From: Lachnospiraceae bacterium AF51-6-b8A
GTDB lineage: Bacteria > Bacillota > Clostridia > Lachnospirales > Lachnospiraceae
Assembly: GCA_027682585.1 (NCBI GenBank)
Contig: JAQCZH010000003.1
Span: forward strand, 1 to 64,000
DNA: 64,000 bases
Direction of reading: 5' to 3'
Position 1 is the stretch's first letter. Every line of letters starts with the position of its first letter. The notes beneath the pieces are model-generated. The model was not told the origin of the DNA. It ran no database searches and saw only the letters and a program-made list of their open reading frames with translations. Made by a program: the position numbers and the translations under genes. Below, in pieces: positions 2,973 through 64,000 of the stretch.

Positions 2973-3884
2973 TTATTCTTCTGGGAAATCCAGCGTGCAG
3001 CTTCTGCCATCCCACCCCAGACTGGCATTGGGAAATATCTCTGTCACCTTCCCCATAAAGCGGCTCGGTCCTACCAGAGAGGGGGAAAAATGAGTCAGCC
3101 AAAGCTCTCCCGCTCCCGCTTCTCTGGCCAAACTGGCGGCCTCTGTAAAAGTCATATGTTTCTTCTTCCTGGCTTTGACAGCATCTTCCGGATCCCCATA
3201 CATCCCCTCACAAATAAAGAGGTCCGCGCCTGCAGCTGCATCAGAAATAGCCGCGGTCGGCCTGGAATCCGTGCAGTAGGTCAGCTTGATCCCTCTGCGG
3301 GCAGGCCCCATAACCATTTCGGGACGATAGACCCTTCCATCCATCTCAACAGGTTCTCCCTTTTGCAGACGATTCCAGACCTTCAGAGGAATCTCCTGCC
3401 TTTTGGCGGCCTCAGCATCGAAACGGCCGGCCCGAGGGATGGAAATAGAATAGCCGTAACAGGTCACATTGTGATTGACCCGAAAGGCATGAATTCGATA
3501 GCCGTAGAGGTCAAACACCCTGGTTTTATCCTCAATTTCAACCATGTGAACCTCAAAAGGCAGTTCCTGGGCAATCGACCGCAAGGCAGTCACCACACGA
3601 ACCAGGCCCTTGGGCCCAATCAGAGTCACCGGATCGGTACGATCGGCATTTCCCATGGAAAGCAAAAGCCCTGGCAGACCGGAGATGTGATCTGCATGAT
3701 AATGTGTAAAGCAGATGACATCAATGGGATTCGGGGAAATCCCCGCTTCCTTCATAGCAATCTGCGTGCCCTCTCCGCAGTCAATGAGCAGACTGTGCCC
3801 GTTAAATCTTGTAACCAGCGCTGTCAGCCAGCGCCGGGGCAGAGGCATGGTTCCTCCTGTTCCCAAGAGGCAGACATCTAACAT
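2973..3884 (-). CDS. rnz: ribonuclease Z
   Basis: A 303-residue metallo-beta-lactamase-fold endonuclease that trims tRNA 3' trailers, needed for tRNAs that lack an encoded CCA; the serine and glutamine tRNAs here do lack CCA. The zinc motif is THYHADHISGLPGLL (around residues 60-74). It also has LLIDCGEGTQ and the later CTDSRPT and LTHFSP metal-ligand segments. AGGAG precedes the ATG at 3884, which overlaps the end of rimI by seven bases, so the two are probably translationally coupled. Confidence 0.93.
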   Translation of the reverse strand: MLDVCLLGTGGTMPLPRRWLTALVTRFNGHSLLIDCGEGTQIAMKEAGISPNPIDVICFTHYHADHISGLPGLLLSMGNADRTDPVTLIGPKGLVRVVTALRSIAQELPFEVHMVEIEDKTRVFDLYGYRIHAFRVNHNVTCYGYSISIPRAGRFDAEAAKRQEIPLKVWNRLQKGEPVEMDGRVYRPEMVMGPARRGIKLTYCTDSRPTAAISDAAAGADLFICEGMYGDPEDAVKARKKKHMTFTEAASLAREAGAGELWLTHFSPSLVGPSRFMGKVTEIFPNASLGWDGRSCTLDFPEE

Positions 3885-25491: not shown

Positions 25492-27621
25492 TTATACTTC
25501 AAAAATCAGATCTCCATACGAGGGCATGGGCCAGAGATCCTTATCCACAATCATCTCCAGCTCATCAACAGGCTGACGCAGATCATCCATCCTGGCCATG
25601 ACCGTCCCATGGAAATACTGCGCCCTTTTCTTACTGCCCTTCTGCTTATCAGCGTCAGCGACGGCCCTCTCAAGAGCTTTCAACGCTTTCTGCGTCTTAG
25701 CCAGAAGTTTGGAAGTATTCTTCAGTATCGTACTCTGAACAGAGGTATCTGCCTCCGGGCAGGCAGAAGACACCTGATTGATCGAGTCCGCCAACCTGGT
25801 CGAGTAACGGATGACCGCAGGCACAATAGATTTGGAAGCGACATCAACCATGGTCTTGGCCTCAATGTTAATCTCCTTGGCATACTGGTCATATTCGATC
25901 TCAACCCGGCTGTTGAGTTCCTCACGAGTAAATACATGGAAGCGCTCAAAGAGTTCTACGGTCGTGTCACTTGCCAGAGCGGGAATGGCATCAACCATAG
26001 AGCTGATATCCGGCAGGCCGCGGCGGGCCGCCTCCTGTCTCCACTCCTCAGAGTATCCGTTCCCATCGAAGACAATGCGCTGATGCCTGGTCATCAGATC
26101 CTTGATGATCCTCTGAACAGCGGCATCCCTGTCCTTGGCCTTTTCAAGCTGATCGCAGACATCCGCGAACTGTTCTGCGACAATGGTGTTCAGGACGACA
26201 TTAGCCTCACCGATGGAATCCTGTGAGCCGCACATGCGGAACTCAAACTTATTTCCTGTAAAAGCGAAAGGAGAAGTTCGGTTACGGTCTGTCGCATCCT
26301 TGGCGAAGTCCGGAATGGACTTGACGCCGGTCTGCATCTTAGCCCCCCTCTTGGAATGGGTTGCCTCTCCCTTATCAAGAACCTGCTCCATAACATCCGC
26401 CAACTGATCCCCCAGAAAAACCGAGATCACACAGGGAGGAGCCTCATTGCCCCCCAGCCGCTGATCATTGCCGATGTCAGCCGCGGACTCGCGAAGAAGG
26501 TCCGCGTGCTTGTCAACGGCAGCCAGAATGCAGGCCAGAGACAGAAGAAAGAGGGTATTTTCATGAGGCCGCTTGCCCGGATCCATCAGATTGATCCCGT
26601 CATCCGTCACCAGAGACCAGTTATTGTGCTTGCCGGACCCATTGACTCCGGCAAATGGCTTCTCATGCAAGAGACACTGCAGGTTATGGCGAATAGCAAC
26701 CTTCTTCAGCGTCTCCATCACCAGGTGATTCTGGTCAACAGCCACATTGCACTCCCCATAAATGGGTGCCAGCTCATGCTGAGCCGGAGCCACCTCATTG
26801 TGCTGTGTCTTGGAGGGTACGCCCAGCTTCCAGAGTTCCTCATTGACATCCTTCATGAAGGATTCAATGCGCTCCGGAATGGCTCCGAAGTAATGGTCGT
26901 CCATTTCCTGTCCCTTGGGCGGCATGGCTCCAAAGAGCGTTCGACCGGTATAGATTAAATCCTTGCGCTTTAAGTAATTGCCGCGGTCAACCAGGAAATA
27001 CTCCTGTTCTGCGCCCACAGAGGGAATGACTTTTTTTGACGTGGTATTGCCCAGAAGACGAAGGAGTCGAATGGCCTGCTCGTTAATCACCTCCATAGAG
27101 CGCAACAGGGGTGTCTTCTGATCCAGTGCCTCGCCGGTATACGCGCAGAAGGCAGTGGGTATACAGAGCGTCGCGCCAGCGGCATCCTGGCGAACGAAAG
27201 CATTGGAAGTACAGTCCCAGGCAGTATAGCCTCTTGCCTCAAAAGTGGCGCGCAGTCCGCCGGAAGGGAAGGAGGACGCATCCGGCTCACCCTTAATCAG
27301 CTCCTTGCCTGAGAAGGACATCAGAACCCTCCCGTCAGACATAGGCGCTGTGATGAAGGAATCATGCTTCTCTGCACTGACCCCATTCAGAGGCTGGAAC
27401 CAGTGCGTATAGTGGGTTGCCCCCTTCTCAATGGCCCATTCCTTCATCTCGTGCGCAACCACATCCGCAGTCTCAATATCAAGATCTCTGCCCTCACGAA
27501 TGGTCTGCTTGAGCTTCTGGTAGGTCTTCTTGGGAAGACGTTCACGCATTACAGTGTCATTAAATACATTCTCGCCAAATATATCCGTGACACTGCAGTA
27601 TGTCGTCTCTTTATTCTCCAT
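25492..27621 (-). CDS. glnN: glutamine synthetase, type III
   Basis: A 709-residue GSIII enzyme forming glutamine from glutamate and ammonia, the large type found in Bacteroidetes, Clostridia and cyanobacteria. Clear GSIII landmarks are an N-terminal domain with FPSGGLRATFEARGYTAWD, the catalytic GAEQEYFLVD and HNEVAPAQHELAPIY, the ATP-binding VNGSGKHNNWS, and NRTSPFAFTGNKFEFR. The AGGAGG before the ATG supports the start. It is preceded by a repeat-rich regulatory region. No ammonium transporter or PII gene is adjacent. Confidence 0.96.
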   Translation of the reverse strand: MENKETTYCSVTDIFGENVFNDTVMRERLPKKTYQKLKQTIREGRDLDIETADVVAHEMKEWAIEKGATHYTHWFQPLNGVSAEKHDSFITAPMSDGRVLMSFSGKELIKGEPDASSFPSGGLRATFEARGYTAWDCTSNAFVRQDAAGATLCIPTAFCAYTGEALDQKTPLLRSMEVINEQAIRLLRLLGNTTSKKVIPSVGAEQEYFLVDRGNYLKRKDLIYTGRTLFGAMPPKGQEMDDHYFGAIPERIESFMKDVNEELWKLGVPSKTQHNEVAPAQHELAPIYGECNVAVDQNHLVMETLKKVAIRHNLQCLLHEKPFAGVNGSGKHNNWSLVTDDGINLMDPGKRPHENTLFLLSLACILAAVDKHADLLRESAADIGNDQRLGGNEAPPCVISVFLGDQLADVMEQVLDKGEATHSKRGAKMQTGVKSIPDFAKDATDRNRTSPFAFTGNKFEFRMCGSQDSIGEANVVLNTIVAEQFADVCDQLEKAKDRDAAVQRIIKDLMTRHQRIVFDGNGYSEEWRQEAARRGLPDISSMVDAIPALASDTTVELFERFHVFTREELNSRVEIEYDQYAKEINIEAKTMVDVASKSIVPAVIRYSTRLADSINQVSSACPEADTSVQSTILKNTSKLLAKTQKALKALERAVADADKQKGSKKRAQYFHGTVMARMDDLRQPVDELEMIVDKDLWPMPSYGDLIFEV

Positions 27622-27873: not shown

Positions 27874-28737
27874 TCACGCCTTGCCCACGCAGCCGAAGAC
27901 TTCGCTTCTCTCGCGGCAGACCTTCTTGATGGCCTCGGCGCCGGGAGCCAGAAGCTTACGGGGATCGAAACCCTTGCCTTCCTTATCCTTTCCCTGCTCG
28001 ATGTACTCACGAGTTGCAGCGGCAAACGCCCACTGACACTCAGAATTCACGTTTACCTTGGCGACACCCATGGAGACAGCCTTGCGGACCTGATCATCCG
28101 GAATGCCGGAACCGCCGTGGAGAACCAGAGGCATATCCCCGGTTTTGGCCTTGATTGCCTCGAGAACATCGAACTGAAGCCCCGCCCAGTTCTCTGGATA
28201 AGCGCCGTGAATATTGCCGATTCCGGCAGCAAGCATATCGACGCCCAGATCTGCAATGGTCTTGCACTCCTCAGGATCTGCACACTCACCAGTAGAAATA
28301 ACGCCGTCTTCCTCACCGCCGATACCGCCGACTTCACACTCAATGGAGAGCCCCAGCTTATGGGCGACTGCAACCAGCTCCCTGGCCTTAGCCAAATTCT
28401 CCTCAAAGGGGAGAGAGGAACCGTCAAACATGATCGATGTAAAGCCTGCCTTAATGCACTCATAAGCCGCATCATAGTTGCCGTGATCCAGATGAAGGGC
28501 GACAGGAACCGTAATTCCGAGAGAATCATGCATTGCGTAGACCATGGCAGCAACCGTTTTATAGCCGCCCATATACTTACCCGCACCCATGGATACGCCT
28601 AAGATGACGGGAACTTTGAGTTCCTCGCAGACCAGGAGAATAGACTTTGTCCATTCCAGATTATTGATGTTGAACTGAGGTACTGCGTAATGACCTGCAA
28701 CGGCCTTCTCCAGCATCTCCTTTGCTGATACGATCAT
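27874..28737 (-). CDS. fba: class II fructose-bisphosphate aldolase
   Basis: A zinc-dependent aldolase, 287 residues, cleaving fructose 1,6-bisphosphate in glycolysis. Visible landmarks are the N-terminal HYAVPQFNINNLEW, the zinc His in ALHLDHGNY, ECEVGGIGGEEDG, the GIGNIHGAYP motif and VLHGGSGIPDDQV near the phosphate site. The open frame extends 25 codons upstream, but GGAGGAATTT immediately before the ATG at 28737 and the family N terminus fix the start there. It has its own promoter and terminator and so forms a one-gene unit. Confidence 0.95.
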   Translation of the reverse strand: MIVSAKEMLEKAVAGHYAVPQFNINNLEWTKSILLVCEELKVPVILGVSMGAGKYMGGYKTVAAMVYAMHDSLGITVPVALHLDHGNYDAAYECIKAGFTSIMFDGSSLPFEENLAKARELVAVAHKLGLSIECEVGGIGGEEDGVISTGECADPEECKTIADLGVDMLAAGIGNIHGAYPENWAGLQFDVLEAIKAKTGDMPLVLHGGSGIPDDQVRKAVSMGVAKVNVNSECQWAFAAATREYIEQGKDKEGKGFDPRKLLAPGAEAIKKVCRERSEVFGCVGKA

Positions 28738-28820
28738 AAATTCCTCCGTTCTTGCTTGTCGCAATGACCTTGAAACGAGCCGCGGTCTGCTGAAAAACCA
28801 CGCCGGCCGCATCTGCCCGT

Positions 28821-28849: not shown

Positions 28850-29029
28850 GTTGCATTTCTTATAAATCCGATCGCCTTCCCCCCTGTCTCTTCCATCAAA
28901 GATTCTCTCCCGACAGACCAAAAGATGATTCCTGACGGGCAAAAAACGAAAGGCAAACCGGTCTCCCGGCAGGAATATGTCTATGAAAATACCAATTACT
29001 CTGCGTATCCTGTCCAGTCTTTCCTCACG

Positions 29030-29064
29030 AAAATACCCTGCCCGGTATCCGGGCAGGGTATTTT
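29030..29064 (-). terminator. perfect 16-bp hairpin, terminator of the small RNA locus
   Basis: AAAATACCCTGCCCGG, a 3-base loop and the exact complement CCGGGCAGGGTATTTT. Because the stem ends in A/T runs it could terminate transcription from either strand. It separates the small RNA locus from the fba promoter region. Confidence 0.85.
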
Positions 29065-29175
29065 CTACATCTATTAAGTTACAAAGGAGTTCTCTTATGT
29101 ATCTAACAGGTTAGATTTATGGGAGTTTATCGTTGGCATACGATATATTCGATACATAAAGGAACCAACAGGATG

Positions 29176-29191
29176 GTTAGGTTTCCCTAAC
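29176..29191. promoter_or_regulatory. operator-like site O2
   Basis: GTTAGGTTTCCCTAAC: GTTAG and CTAAC arms six bases apart, positioned at the expected transcription start of the small RNA locus. It resembles the TTAGG/CCTAA arms of DtxR/IdeR-type metal-repressor boxes, but the spacing differs, so the binder is uncertain. Confidence 0.5.
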
Positions 29192-29199
29192 TGACTTAT

Positions 29200-29228
29200 A
29201 TGTTAGTGCTTGCTAACTATTTTGTCAA
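29200..29228 (-). promoter_or_regulatory. promoter of the small RNA locus, with operator O1
   Basis: Minus-strand TTGACA (29223-29228), 17 bases, then TAACAT (29200-29205). An inverted repeat, GTTAGTGCTTGCTAAC (29202-29217), covers the spacer and -10, so a bound repressor would block RNA polymerase. A third palindrome, ATCTAACAGGTTAGAT, is at 29101-29116. Confidence 0.6.
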
Positions 29229-29247: not shown

Positions 29248-30180
29248 TTAAATATTATTTCGGCGCTCCTCTTCTCTGCCTAAAGACTTTCCACGCAACA
29301 TAATATTCAGCGCTCTCGGCAGATTCTTCACCACTGCCTCCCTGAGCTGACCACCGAACTCTCCGTCCAGAGTCCAGGAAATGGACTGGCCGCAGCGAAA
29401 ATGAATCTGGCCACTCTTGAACGCATAGATCATGTCGCTTTGCTTCACTCTCCCTGTCAGATACGAGATGATTTCATTGAATTCTCTCGGATTCCTAGGC
29501 CGCCGGACCAGGACAACTTCAAACTTTCCGTCATCCAGATCAACCGGATGGTTGATTAGCCCCCGGAAGCCTCCGACAGAGACAGAATTCGTCACCATTC
29601 CATAGATGAACTCATCAAAGATACGATTCCCATCATAGTCCACCTGAACGAAGTAAGATGGTACGTCCGCCAGCTGCCGCATTCCTTCCAGAACATAAGC
29701 GGCATGACCGAAGATATTTTTCATTTCCTGGCTGGTATGATAAGAGGCCTCTGTAAAGAGTCCGAAGGCAGCTACATAGACAAAGTAACCGTCATTGAAT
29801 CTGCCGATGTCGCAGGCAAAGGGATGCCCTGTAACAGCAATCCGGGCATTCTCTTTCATATTCTGCGAGAGCTGCAGAGAAGCCGCAAAATCATTGCTGG
29901 TCCCGGCCGGAATATATCCCACAGGCACATGGTGACCGCCGCGCATGAGACCGGACACCACTTCGTCCAGGGTGCCGTCTCCGCCGGCGCAGACAATCAA
30001 ATCCCTGCTGCCCCCCTCCGCAAGCGCCTTAACCTCAGCATCTCCCTGACACTGGGTCGCATAGATACTGACCTCAAAGCCGCTCTTGCACAAGATGTCA
30101 ACAATATCCGTCAGGCTGCCGCGAATACGCTCCCTGCCGGAGTGAGGATTGAAAATGAAGAGCAGTTTCCCTCTGCTCAT
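29248..30180 (-). CDS. diacylglycerol/lipid kinase family protein
   Basis: A 310-residue protein of the DagK/YegS lipid-kinase family. The N-terminal FIFNPHSGRERIRG, the nucleotide loop CAGGDGTLDEVVSGL and GYIPAGTSNDFAASL are diagnostic, as is the later EFGGQ segment. It probably phosphorylates a membrane lipid such as diacylglycerol. The start at 30180 follows the Crh-like gene by one base, with AAGGG upstream; the frame extends further upstream inside that gene but without support. It is the last gene of the hprK-whiA cluster. Confidence 0.9.
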   Translation of the reverse strand: MSRGKLLFIFNPHSGRERIRGSLTDIVDILCKSGFEVSIYATQCQGDAEVKALAEGGSRDLIVCAGGDGTLDEVVSGLMRGGHHVPVGYIPAGTSNDFAASLQLSQNMKENARIAVTGHPFACDIGRFNDGYFVYVAAFGLFTEASYHTSQEMKNIFGHAAYVLEGMRQLADVPSYFVQVDYDGNRIFDEFIYGMVTNSVSVGGFRGLINHPVDLDDGKFEVVLVRRPRNPREFNEIISYLTGRVKQSDMIYAFKSGQIHFRCGQSISWTLDGEFGGQLREAVVKNLPRALNIMLRGKSLGREEERRNNI

Positions 30181-31345: not shown

Positions 31346-32221
31346 TCACTTACCTCTGGCCCGGTCCTTGTCAATATCCCGGTGCTCCTTCTTGATTCCG
31401 TAGTTCTTGCCGTCTTTTAAGCGGTCATAGAGCTGATTGGTCAGGGTAATCGACCGATGCTTGCCTCCGGTGCAGCCGATGCATACGACCAATTGATTGC
31501 GCCCTTCTTTGATGTAATTATCAATGAGAAAATGGATCATATCTGTCAGCTTATCCAAAAAAACATGAGCCTCCGGGCAATTCATGACATACTCCTGAAT
31601 CTCAGGGTCATTCCCCGTCTTTGGGCGAAGTGAGGCGACATAATAGGGATTGGGCAAAAAGCGTACATCGAAGACCAGGTCCGCATCCGTAGGAATCCCA
31701 TATTTAAAGCCAAAGGAGAGCAAAGTCACCATCATGCTCTTATAGTCCGAATCCTCCACCAGGATCCGCTCCATCTCCGCCTTCAGTTCCCTTGTCAGCA
31801 GATGACTGGTGTCAATAATATAGTCCGCTCGATAGCGCAGATAAGACAGGGCGCCTCTCTCCCTGACAATTCCAGCGGCAATGCGCTCTGACCCGGAGAG
31901 AGGATGATTGCGCCGAGTCTCCTTATATCGCTTTAGCAGAGTTTCATCATCTGCATCCAGAAATAGGACATCCACCTTCTTGCCGTCCTGATCCAGCTCG
32001 TTCAGGATATCGGCGATTCGCTCCAAATGCCCCTCGCTCCGGATATCAATGCCAACCGCCACCTTCTGTCCCTTTGGCATATTCTTCGCTGTCAGATCGA
32101 CAAAGCTCTTAAAGAGTGGAATCGGAAGATTGTCCACGCAATAGTATCCCATGTCCTCCAGGAACTTGAAAGCCGTCGATTTCCCCGCTCCGGACATACC
32201 GGTCAATAAGAGTAAATGCAT
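31346..32221 (-). CDS. rapZ: RNase adapter/nucleotide-binding protein RapZ (YvcJ)
   Basis: A 291-residue protein with Walker A GMSGAGKST (residues 8-16), the YYCVDNLPIPLF segment, and the C-terminal CIGCTGGKHRSI motif. In E. coli RapZ controls glmS mRNA turnover; in Bacillus YvcJ has GTPase activity and affects competence. The ATG shares a base with the murB stop codon (TAATG), so translation is likely coupled. The position upstream of whiA is conserved across Firmicutes. Confidence 0.94.
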   Translation of the reverse strand: MHLLLLTGMSGAGKSTAFKFLEDMGYYCVDNLPIPLFKSFVDLTAKNMPKGQKVAVGIDIRSEGHLERIADILNELDQDGKKVDVLFLDADDETLLKRYKETRRNHPLSGSERIAAGIVRERGALSYLRYRADYIIDTSHLLTRELKAEMERILVEDSDYKSMMVTLLSFGFKYGIPTDADLVFDVRFLPNPYYVASLRPKTGNDPEIQEYVMNCPEAHVFLDKLTDMIHFLIDNYIKEGRNQLVVCIGCTGGKHRSITLTNQLYDRLKDGKNYGIKKEHRDIDKDRARGK

Positions 32222-33129
32222 TAAAATTCTCCCACAAATCTGACTTCCGGCTCTAAGTCAACCCCGAACTTCTCCTTGACTTTGGCCTGAACGTCCGCCA
32301 TGAGCTGACGAACTTCCGCGGCAGAGGCCCCGCCCCGATTGACGACGAAACCGCAGTGTTTCTCCGACACCTGAGCCTGCCCGACCCGATAGCCCCTAAG
32401 GCCGGCATCCTGGATCAGTTTGCCCGCGAAATACCCCTGTGGCCTCTTGAAGGTAGACCCGGCGGATGCCATCTCCAGGGGCTGCTTTAAAGTCCTTCTC
32501 CTCGTCAGATCGGTCATGACGGCGTCAATCTCCCCCGCCTCTCCCCTCTTAAGGCGCAGGACTGCGGAGAGGACAACGCTTCCCTCCTCCCTGATGCGGG
32601 AATGGCGATAAGAAAAATGCATCTCTCCCAGAGAGTAATTGCGGATCTCTCCCCCCTCCGTCAGAACTTCCACAGACGCAATCACATCTTCCATGGTGCT
32701 TCCATAAGCTCCGGCATTCATCATAACCGCTCCGCCCAGGCTCCCCGGAATCCCGGACAGAGCTTCCATACCGCTGAGTCCGGCTCGCTGAGCCTGCCTG
32801 GCCACTCTGGACAGGGGCGCCCCGGCCTGTGCCTCAATCTGCTCCCCGTTTATGCCGATCTGATCCATCTCATTTCCTATATGAATCACCGCTCCTCGGA
32901 TCCCCTTATCCCCCACCAACAGATCAGAACCGTTTCCAAGAATCATCAGGGGGATGTCCGTCTTTCTCAGAGCCGCAAGCAGGGGACCGACCTGCTCCTT
33001 TCGCGGCTCTAAAAAAAGATCTGCCGGGCCGCCGATGCGAAAGGTCGTATGAGCCGACATAGGCTCATCCATACGAATCTGCTCCTCTTCCAGAACACTT
33101 CTGGCAGCTCTTATCCAAGAATCCTGCAT
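32221..33129 (-). CDS. murB: UDP-N-acetylmuramate dehydrogenase MurB
   Basis: The FAD-dependent reductase that makes UDP-MurNAc. It is 302 residues from the ATG at 33129, which follows AGGAG by six bases; the open frame continues 15 codons upstream without a site. The FAD-binding SAHTTFRIGGPADLFLEPR, MILGNGSDLLV, ALSGIPGSLGGAVMMNAGAYG and the catalytic-Ser-containing ASAGSTFKRP are present. It is typical of the short Firmicutes type. Confidence 0.95.
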   Translation of the reverse strand: MQDSWIRAARSVLEEEQIRMDEPMSAHTTFRIGGPADLFLEPRKEQVGPLLAALRKTDIPLMILGNGSDLLVGDKGIRGAVIHIGNEMDQIGINGEQIEAQAGAPLSRVARQAQRAGLSGMEALSGIPGSLGGAVMMNAGAYGSTMEDVIASVEVLTEGGEIRNYSLGEMHFSYRHSRIREEGSVVLSAVLRLKRGEAGEIDAVMTDLTRRRTLKQPLEMASAGSTFKRPQGYFAGKLIQDAGLRGYRVGQAQVSEKHCGFVVNRGGASAAEVRQLMADVQAKVKEKFGVDLEPEVRFVGEF

Positions 33130-49604: not shown

Positions 49605-49617
49605 TATTTTGTACACA

Positions 49618-49743
49618 ATCTTTGGGGCAGGTGAAATTCCTGACCGGCGGTGACAGTCCGCGAACCCCTTTGGGGCCGACCCGGTGGAATTCCGGAACCG
49701 ACGGTAACAGGCAGATGCTTGGACAGTCCGGATGGGAGAAGAT
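49618..49743 (+). promoter_or_regulatory. FMN riboswitch (RFN element)
   Basis: The conserved RFN blocks are present: GGGGCAGGTGAAATTCC, GACCGGCGGTGACAGTCCGCGA, CCGGTGGAATTCCGG, ACCGACGGTAACAG and GGACAGTCCGGATGGGAGAAGA. ATCTT at the 5' end pairs with AAGAT at the 3' end. It binds flavin mononucleotide. With the terminator at 49767-49808 it forms a transcriptional off-switch for ribU. Confidence 0.95.
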
Positions 49744-49766
49744 GGATACGCTCACAGGTCAGAGTC

Positions 49767-62782: not shown

Positions 62783-62935
62783 CTACTTGTGCTTCTCCTC
62801 TGTGCAGCAGGATCCGCCCGCGCAGTTTCCGCTGCAGCCGGCACAGCCCTGAGAGTGGCGAATCACATGAATGCAGCCGGCAACAAGAGCCGCAATGGCA
62901 ACAACCGCAATGATACTTCCAAGAATCGTAGGCAT
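62783..62935 (-). CDS. FeoB-associated cysteine-rich membrane protein
   Basis: A 50-residue protein: one N-terminal TM (MPTILGSIIAVVAIAALVAG) and a short cytoplasmic cysteine cluster CAGCSGNCAGGSCC near the end. This is the form of the small cysteine-rich proteins encoded after feoB in many Clostridia. AAAGGAG precedes the ATG at 62935. It may help metal or redox handling at the transporter; this has not been shown. Confidence 0.88.
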   Translation of the reverse strand: MPTILGSIIAVVAIAALVAGCIHVIRHSQGCAGCSGNCAGGSCCTEEKHK

Positions 62936-63073
62936 ATTTGCTCCTTTCCCTGCGGATTCCTCTGACGAGAGAATCCGACGACAATCTCCAATACTGCTGT
63001 CTTGCGAATGCGCACAGATCACGAACAGATCCGCGGGCACTCGCTGATATTTGCGACTACAGCAGCAAAAGCT

Positions 63074-64000
63074 TTATAACTGCTTGTTCTTCTCAAGAGC
63101 CTCGACGGAAGTCTCCCCCCGCACCGTCTGCTCCGGTACGTAGCCCTTTCTGAAAAGCAGGTAGAGAAGGCCTGCCAGGAAGACAAATCCCAAAACAGAT
63201 GCCGCAGTAAAGGGCACTCCGAAAGCCAGACCGATGACGCGGTAGACGATCAGAGACACAACATAAGCCCAGCCGCACATCCAGCCGACAGCTGCCCAGA
63301 ACCACTTGCGGTTGTTCATCTCCCTGCGGATGGCACCCATAGCCGCAAAGCAGGGAGCGCAGAGTAGGTTAAAGCACATGAAAGCATAGGCTGAAATGGG
63401 AGTGTAATCCTTGGCTACATTGTCCCAGATCTGTTCACCGTCATCCTCCAGATCGTCGTCACCCTGGTAGTTGTAGAGGACGCCGAAGGTACCGACAACA
63501 TTCTCCTTGGCCAGAAGTCCGGTTACAGCTGCGACGGTGGGTCTCCATGAACCGAAGCCATTGGGTCGGAAGATGGTAGAGACAGGCTGGGCGACGGTAG
63601 CCAGAATCGAGGAATCCATATAGGAGACCTCATCCTCCTCAATGTGCATCTTCTCAGCCAGATCAGTGACAATCTGCGGATTCTCCTCGACCGCATTGGC
63701 CCAATTGTCATCCTGCAGATAGCTGAACTTGCCCTCGATGAAACCAAAATTGGAGGCAAACCAGATGATCATGGTCGCCAGAATAATCATAGAGCCGGCG
63801 CGCTTTACGAAAGAGAATCCTCTCTCCCAGGTAGCCCGTGCGACATTGCCCACAGAGGGTACATGATAGGCAGGCAGCTCCATAACAAAAGGAGCAGGCT
63901 CACCTGCGAAGGCCTTGAATTTCTTCAGAATAATTCCTGAGAGAACAATGGATGCCATGCCGATGAAGTAGGCGGACACGGCGATCAGGGAGTTCCCGCC
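63074..64000 (-). CDS. feoB: ferrous iron transport protein B, C-terminal part
   Basis: The last 308 residues of FeoB, the ferrous-iron permease with an N-terminal GTPase; the frame is open to the right edge (GGNSLIAVSAYFIG at the border), so the GTPase domain lies outside. The Gate/nucleoside-recognition region is visible: KFKAFAGEPAPFVMELPAYHVPS, GSMIILATMIIWFASNFG and VTGLLAKENVVGTFGVLY. About five membrane segments remain. The cysteine-rich partner gene follows. Confidence 0.93.
   Translation of the reverse strand, partial: GGNSLIAVSAYFIGMASIVLSGIILKKFKAFAGEPAPFVMELPAYHVPSVGNVARATWERGFSFVKRAGSMIILATMIIWFASNFGFIEGKFSYLQDDNWANAVEENPQIVTDLAEKMHIEEDEVSYMDSSILATVAQPVSTIFRPNGFGSWRPTVAAVTGLLAKENVVGTFGVLYNYQGDDDLEDDGEQIWDNVAKDYTPISAYAFMCFNLLCAPCFAAMGAIRREMNNRKWFWAAVGWMCGWAYVVSLIVYRVIGLAFGVPFTAASVLGFVFLAGLLYLLFRKGYVPEQTVRGETSVEALEKNKQL

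Follow-up and report, generated by a model that had tools for sequence, protein, structure and literature searches.

Iron-responsive small RNAs and the locus

RyhB of enterobacteria is an iron-repressed RNA that lowers the mRNAs of iron proteins and depends on Fur and Hfq. IsrR of Staphylococcus aureus is iron-repressed, has one Fur box in the promoter and another just after the transcription start, acts on Fe-S enzyme mRNAs through C-rich open stretches and ends at its own terminator (PMC9410917). FsrA of Bacillus subtilis directs a C-rich motif against Shine-Dalgarno sequences and is described as iron-sparing, controlled by Fur and helped by FbpABC (PMC9410917). MrsI of Mycobacterium tuberculosis is an iron-sparing RNA that is about 100 nt long and has a seed of six bases; a single, predicted IdeR box is described for it (PMC8628891).

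The locus analysed here lies on the minus strand of the window, the whole 64-kb stretch of Lachnospiraceae DNA under study. Judged from sequence, it very probably is an iron-sparing small RNA gene that is repressed by a DtxR/MntR-family protein and whose RNA pairs with the starts of iron-protein mRNAs. Iron most likely switches the gene off, and the RNA probably restrains iron-rich enzymes in iron shortage. The best reading by analogy is that it works like IsrR, FsrA and MrsI. The candidate RNA resembles RyhB as a presumed iron-repressed RNA with predicted action on iron-protein mRNAs and differs in that it has no Rfam match. It shares with IsrR, by prediction, two repressor boxes, C-rich open stretches, Fe-S enzyme targets and a terminator; IsrR differs in its Fur boxes, its bacterial class and its other targets, whereas the window RNA carries GTTAG-N6-CTAAC (PMC9410917). 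Rfam detected no family related to the window RNA. The C-rich anti-Shine-Dalgarno motif and the presumed iron-sparing role are common to FsrA, which differs in Fur control and FbpABC help (PMC9410917). MrsI is a precedent for DtxR-family control (predicted) of an iron-sparing RNA, but it is actinobacterial and has about 100 nt and a single IdeR box (PMC8628891), in contrast to a predicted length of about 165 nt and two operators for the window RNA.

Rfam 15 covariance models, applied to the whole window and to a 601-base slice, gave no family, RyhB and FsrA included, over the locus at gathering score. The best match below threshold, AaHKsRNA41, was rejected, as it reached 25.3 bits against 97 and lay on the other strand over the hairpin. 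The literature search, which left most subscription papers outside, returned no recognised description of the RNA or the operator in Lachnospiraceae. The small RNA itself appears to be new, and its presumed iron-sparing role familiar from other bacteria.

Locus structure and conservation

A lipid kinase query in the genome collection retrieved one relative, Shuttleworthella satelles DSM 14600 (Lachnospiraceae), with 87% identity and the same gene order around the locus. The following features were assigned:

29248..30180, minus strand: upstream neighbour, YegS/BmrU-family lipid kinase gene (TIGR00147, above cut-off)
29223..29228, minus strand: -35 element TTGACA, identical in S. satelles
29202..29217, unstranded: operator 1, GTTAG-N6-CTAAC, covering the spacer and the -10 element
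29200..29205, minus strand: -10 element TAACAT, 17 bases past the -35 element, overlapping operator 1, identical in S. satelles
29176..29191, unstranded: operator 2, GTTAG-N6-CTAAC, at the predicted transcription start
29029..29193, minus strand: predicted small RNA of about 165 nt, its start placed from the -10 element
29155..29175, minus strand: 5' segment, part GUUGGUUCCUUUAUG, with an 11-nt perfect match to the S. satelles pyruvate:ferredoxin oxidoreductase (PFOR) start
29089..29165, minus strand: long imperfect stem-loop, from fold and self-complementarity
29109..29128, minus strand: open loop with CUCCCAUAAAUCUAA, with 10-nt perfect matches to the S. satelles [FeFe] hydrogenase and RnfC starts
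29068..29092, minus strand: linker with anti-Shine-Dalgarno CUCCUUUGU, matching S. satelles rubrerythrin, NifU-like and NUBPL-type gene starts
29029..29065, minus strand: terminator hairpin with 17-bp perfect arms (29029-29045 and 29049-29065)
27874..28743, minus strand: downstream neighbour, class II fructose-bisphosphate aldolase gene (TIGR01859, above cut-off)

The lipid kinase gene, the small RNA locus and the aldolase gene thus all lie on the minus strand. The promoter TTGACA-17-TAACAT (29228-29200), which the initial annotation had described as covered by an operator, was recovered as such and matched 10 of 12 consensus positions; the second operator copy was likewise present at the predicted transcription start (29176-29191). 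These were the only two perfect copies of GTTAG-N6-CTAAC in the 64 kb, where about 0.06 occurrences of ten fixed bases would be expected by chance (own arithmetic). A third palindrome at 29102-29115, once counted as a further copy, was rejected: it reads CTAAC-N2-GTTAG, with reversed arm order and a spacing of two instead of six.

Within the predicted RNA, operator 2 would fold into a hairpin at the 5' end, capped by a GAAA loop. The arms of the long stem (29089-29106 and 29148-29165) were 83% complementary, which bore out the earlier description of such a stem, and the loop had a predicted unpaired probability of about 0.9-1.0 at most bases. The predicted fold had an energy of -60.2 kcal/mol, whereas shuffles gave -30.9 (z -8.4) and none of 200 was as stable; the terminator hairpin supplies much of this. 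This perfect hairpin had been noted before with arms of 16 bp; its presence held and the length was corrected to 17 bp. It is symmetric and could serve both strands. A frame of 20 codons in the stem region, read by eye, is not considered a protein gene because it has no Shine-Dalgarno sequence and because the single change by which S. satelles departs from it, CGA to CAA, alters the amino acid, in agreement with the earlier view that no plausible protein is encoded.

Both anatomy and conservation can be read from the DNA itself. Between the window and S. satelles, 126 of 128 bases of the RNA body (29193-29066), 76 of 77 of the stem-loop and 32 of 37 of the terminator were identical; fourfold-degenerate sites were identical at 88/143 in aldolase and 80/126 in the kinase, about 62%, and the 19 bases before the promoter at nine. 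In operator 1, all ten arm positions were kept and only one of the six central ones, the mark of a protein site that is read via its arms. Operator 2 was identical throughout (16/16), which would fit an additional function at the RNA level. The conservation of stem and operators in a close relative, on which the initial annotation had staked its reading, was therefore found. The two differing bases of the RNA body lie outside most target matches. Two species are known to carry this RNA sequence, the source of the window and S. satelles, the only Shuttleworthella genome compared. BLAST of promoter and RNA against 299 family genomes gave matches at E 0.01 in seven, with S. satelles alone matched at full length. 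In G098, the match comprised promoter, operators and 5' hairpin ahead of feoA, and the remaining matches spanned 24-34 bases. The phage collection contained no match to the locus.

Operator distribution and regulator

The exact operator occurred at 10 sites in the S. satelles genome, its reversed control at none. All ten lay outside called genes, in a genome called 86% coding: two at the small RNA, one at the feo promoter and seven elsewhere. The site at feo answered a check proposed at the outset, a search for the operator upstream of feoA. It stands at the head of an operon that comprises a CopZ-like gene, two genes recognised as FeoA by Pfam, a feoB-like gene and a Cys-rich gene. In the window, the minus strand at 62783-64000 encodes the C-terminal portion of FeoB and a small Cys-rich protein, with feoA and the promoter beyond the right edge. 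Other operators in S. satelles preceded genes that read as those of a flavodoxin, a DUF3793 protein, two ABC proteins and a membrane protein of the ECF type; these names were taken from the letters without a family test, and two sites were unclear.

Among 397 family genomes, 31 contained promoter plus operator (control 0) and 50 the double operator (reversed control 1). The double operators numbered 58. Within 700 nt, phmmer placed a FeoA homologue at 30 of them, a DtxR-like homologue at 19, both at 12, a DUF3793-like homologue at nine and none of these at 15. S. satelles itself has a linked, presumably cognate regulator gene of the DtxR superfamily, about 3 kb from feo, which encodes the one DtxR-type domain over the Pfam cut-off. 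Since the shared operator stands at feo and next to feoA and DtxR-like genes, the repressor of the small RNA is most likely of the DtxR type and the signal most likely iron. Together with the conserved operator arms, these links favour the original proposal of a regulatory RNA under a repressor, for which a DtxR-type protein was one of the candidates. The first guess of iron likewise gained from the operator at the feo promoter and from the enrichment of iron proteins among the predicted targets (see below).

The DtxR/IdeR box is a 19-bp consensus, TTAGGTTAGSCTAACCTAA. The window operator is like it in its TTAG/CTAA half-sites and its presumed regulator superfamily, but comprises 16 bp with a free six-base centre, and the strict box was not matched.

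The same operator and RNA could also be served by an MntR-type protein with manganese as co-repressor, and the RNA would then answer manganese shortage or redox stress. In NCBIfam, the S. satelles regulator did indeed match MntR models best (7e-28), all below cut-off. Against manganese stand a regulon of feo, a flavodoxin-like gene and others, the adjacency of feoA to 30 of the 58 double operators, and the Fe-S proteins among the predicted targets, which make this reading unlikely. Iron is retained below as the probable signal.

Predicted targets

Complementarity of the RNA to the start regions of iron-protein mRNAs exceeded chance. The S. satelles gene set, 1850 genes called within this analysis, was screened for perfect complementarity of at least 10 nt to the RNA body between -30 and +15 of the start codon. 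Matches were obtained for 21 genes, compared with a mean of 8.3 for dinucleotide shuffles, 20 of 2000 of which reached 21. Four of these genes carried a ferredoxin-type or radical-SAM-type cysteine motif (Fe-motif), a definition fixed before the hits were seen; the shuffle mean was 0.13 and none of 2000 shuffles reached four. In a rank test for which the RNA segments were slightly trimmed, the 25 Fe-motif genes had a mean log rank of -1.69 versus -1.10 (sd 0.16; 0 of 80 as low), and five of the 25 fell in the top 5% of ranks, with 1.5 expected and one of 80 reaching five. Raw counts of low-energy duplexes were above those of all shuffles for the linker (706 genes at -14 kcal/mol, at most 666 in shuffles) and within the shuffle range for the other two parts, the 5' segment and the loop; as main evidence they gave way to perfect matches and ranks.

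Pfam and NCBIfam scans marked nine of the 21 matched genes as iron-related, a label assigned after the hits had been seen. They encode PFOR, a monomeric [FeFe] hydrogenase, RnfC, rubrerythrin, a prismane-family protein, a 4Fe-4S single-cluster protein, a CoA-activase type protein, these all being iron carriers, a NUBPL-type iron-transfer NTPase and a weakly NifU-like protein, the last with a match below cut-off. The scan covered 18 of the 21, the activase over residues 176-1428 only; the unscanned C5:959182, C5:1219909 and C5:956852 were counted as non-iron. For comparison, 30 genes hit by shuffled RNAs were sampled and 28 scanned, and a single one was iron-related, an ODP protein of the flavodiiron type.

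After correction for accessibility, rubrerythrin ranked 3rd, RnfC 4th, hydrogenase 8th and PFOR 21st of the 1850 genes. Neither of the two leading genes, which encode RapZ and a cation ATPase, specifies an iron protein. The rubrerythrin pairing, inspected by eye, consists of two perfect 9-bp blocks, one of them across the Shine-Dalgarno sequence. The bases of the PFOR match are partly paired in the predicted RNA fold. The analysis yields concrete predicted seed-target pairs. A bipartite motif, CATCTA..AAGGAG, was discarded; it was present in three genes, yet 11 of 90 permutations, itself included, did as well.

Proposed mechanism

When iron is sufficient, a DtxR/MntR-family repressor would occupy both copies of GTTAG-N6-CTAAC, the one over the -10 element and the one at +1, and would keep the small RNA gene off alongside feo and other iron-shortage genes. 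As iron falls, the RNA of about 165 nt would be made and would end at its own terminator. Three parts of it, namely the 5' segment, the open loop and the CU-rich linker, are predicted to pair with the Shine-Dalgarno and start regions of mRNAs for iron-rich proteins, which would lower the translation of PFOR, [FeFe] hydrogenase, RnfC and rubrerythrin. The shared operator and the excess of complementarity are features of the sequences compared; from these we infer transcription, iron as co-repressor, the binding protein and the translational block. The scheme suggests how iron is rationed in this major family of fermenting bacteria from gut and mouth, with PFOR, hydrogenase and Rnf lowered at the mRNA level while Feo and a flavodoxin are raised. 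If true, it would tie host and dietary iron to hydrogen and fatty-acid output.

Candidate RNAs in other genomes

At six double operators elsewhere, no gene came directly behind and a hairpin resembling a terminator lay at a distance of 108-183 nt, counted from where operator 1 begins: G304 (L034), G285 (L047), G154 (L048), G248 (L090), G079 (L103) and G149 (L087). L087 may be a leader rather than a free RNA, with a next gene that reads like DUF3793. None of the six loci had a match in Rfam, and no similarity to the window RNA was seen beyond the operator hairpin and CU-rich stretches.

Each candidate was compared with its own genome's copies of four genes chosen beforehand (PFOR, rubrerythrin, hydrogenase and RnfC), which gave 14 pairs. 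The pairs left out were PFOR in G079 and RnfC in G248, for which no match was obtained, RnfC in G154 and G285, with distant matches only, hydrogenase in three of the six and rubrerythrin in three, where its start was unreadable (N-terminal extension). In G304, one stretch matched rubrerythrin over 13 nt and PFOR over 11 nt perfectly, and long duplexes to hydrogenase and RnfC were also formed. The G149 candidate had a perfect 11-nt match to PFOR. The summed longest matches were 36 for G304 and 35 for G149, values reached by 0 of 3000 shuffles in each case; these two, the best of six after the first round, were the only ones tested at 3000 shuffles. G248 gave a partial signal, with 10 nt of PFOR inside the coding start (6/300 shuffles) and a hydrogenase duplex (0/300). 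For G154, G285 and G079, none of the chosen genes was clearly matched.

It stands evenly balanced whether these loci represent a Lachnospiraceae class of iron-repressed small RNA genes with a constant shell, in which the RNA sequence was replaced between genera and each time refitted to the same iron enzymes. The shell would consist of the double GTTAG-N6-CTAAC, its second copy as 5' hairpin, followed by a pairing stretch and a terminator. If such a class exists, regulation and targets (PFOR, rubrerythrin, hydrogenase and RnfC) would be fixed and the seeds fast-changing or convergent. Double operator and terminator provide a searchable signature for such RNAs where sequence similarity fails.

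The matches to iron genes in G304 and G149 also bear on the idea that the window RNA is iron-repressed and acts otherwise, as a protein sponge, through activation or upon a small number of unrelated mRNAs. Conservation of 76 of 77 stem-loop positions goes beyond the need of seeds alone, and RapZ, which heads the ranking, has a start region (window 32197-32245) that pairs with the RNA loop and is the same in both species. The rapZ start overlaps the murB end, as read, so that coding can account for its conservation, and the enrichment of Fe-motif genes beyond 2000 shuffles argues with the matches in the two other genomes for iron-protein mRNAs as targets. Such other modes of action are regarded as quite unlikely, and pairing with iron-protein mRNA starts as the preferred reading.

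Remaining alternatives and further observations

Two operators elsewhere, L027 and L114, precede genes that read as Fur-like from their letters, as would be seen if a Fur-family protein bound the operator and the rest of the scheme were unchanged. DtxR-like genes adjoin 19 of the 58 double operators, and phmmer with one partial Fur-like query, a weak test, retrieved no Fur among the 1850 S. satelles gene calls. A Fur-family repressor is judged very improbable on these grounds and a DtxR-type protein preferred. The aldolase gene lies on the same strand and starts about 290 bases past the hairpin. That the locus serves it as leader or attenuator, with no free RNA, is hardly credible in view of the strong terminator in both species, the poorly conserved spacer right after it (57 of 103 aligned positions identical, 76 gapped) and the 84 of 106 identical positions in the 107 bases ahead of aldolase, as for a separate aldolase promoter.

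Some operators had other neighbours. In L093, L102 and at S. satelles C5:1277947 (one mismatch in S. satelles), they lay just upstream of enolase-like genes, and for this reason glycolysis may be part of the same regulon. In the feoA leaders L005, L037 and L043, a run of T followed within a few bases of operator 2, whose hairpin could also attenuate feoA transcription there. The double operators L073, L078, L080, L094, L101 and L105 preceded a protein of 93-97 residues that starts with MSVVIxGG or alike (MDMSVVIVGG in L073). Elsewhere in the window, a glutamine synthetase-like protein of 709 residues was encoded at 25492-27621 on the minus strand, with NCBIfam glutamine synthetase models far below cut-off. 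An FMN riboswitch at 49614-49747 on the plus strand scored 86.3 bits, above its gathering score.
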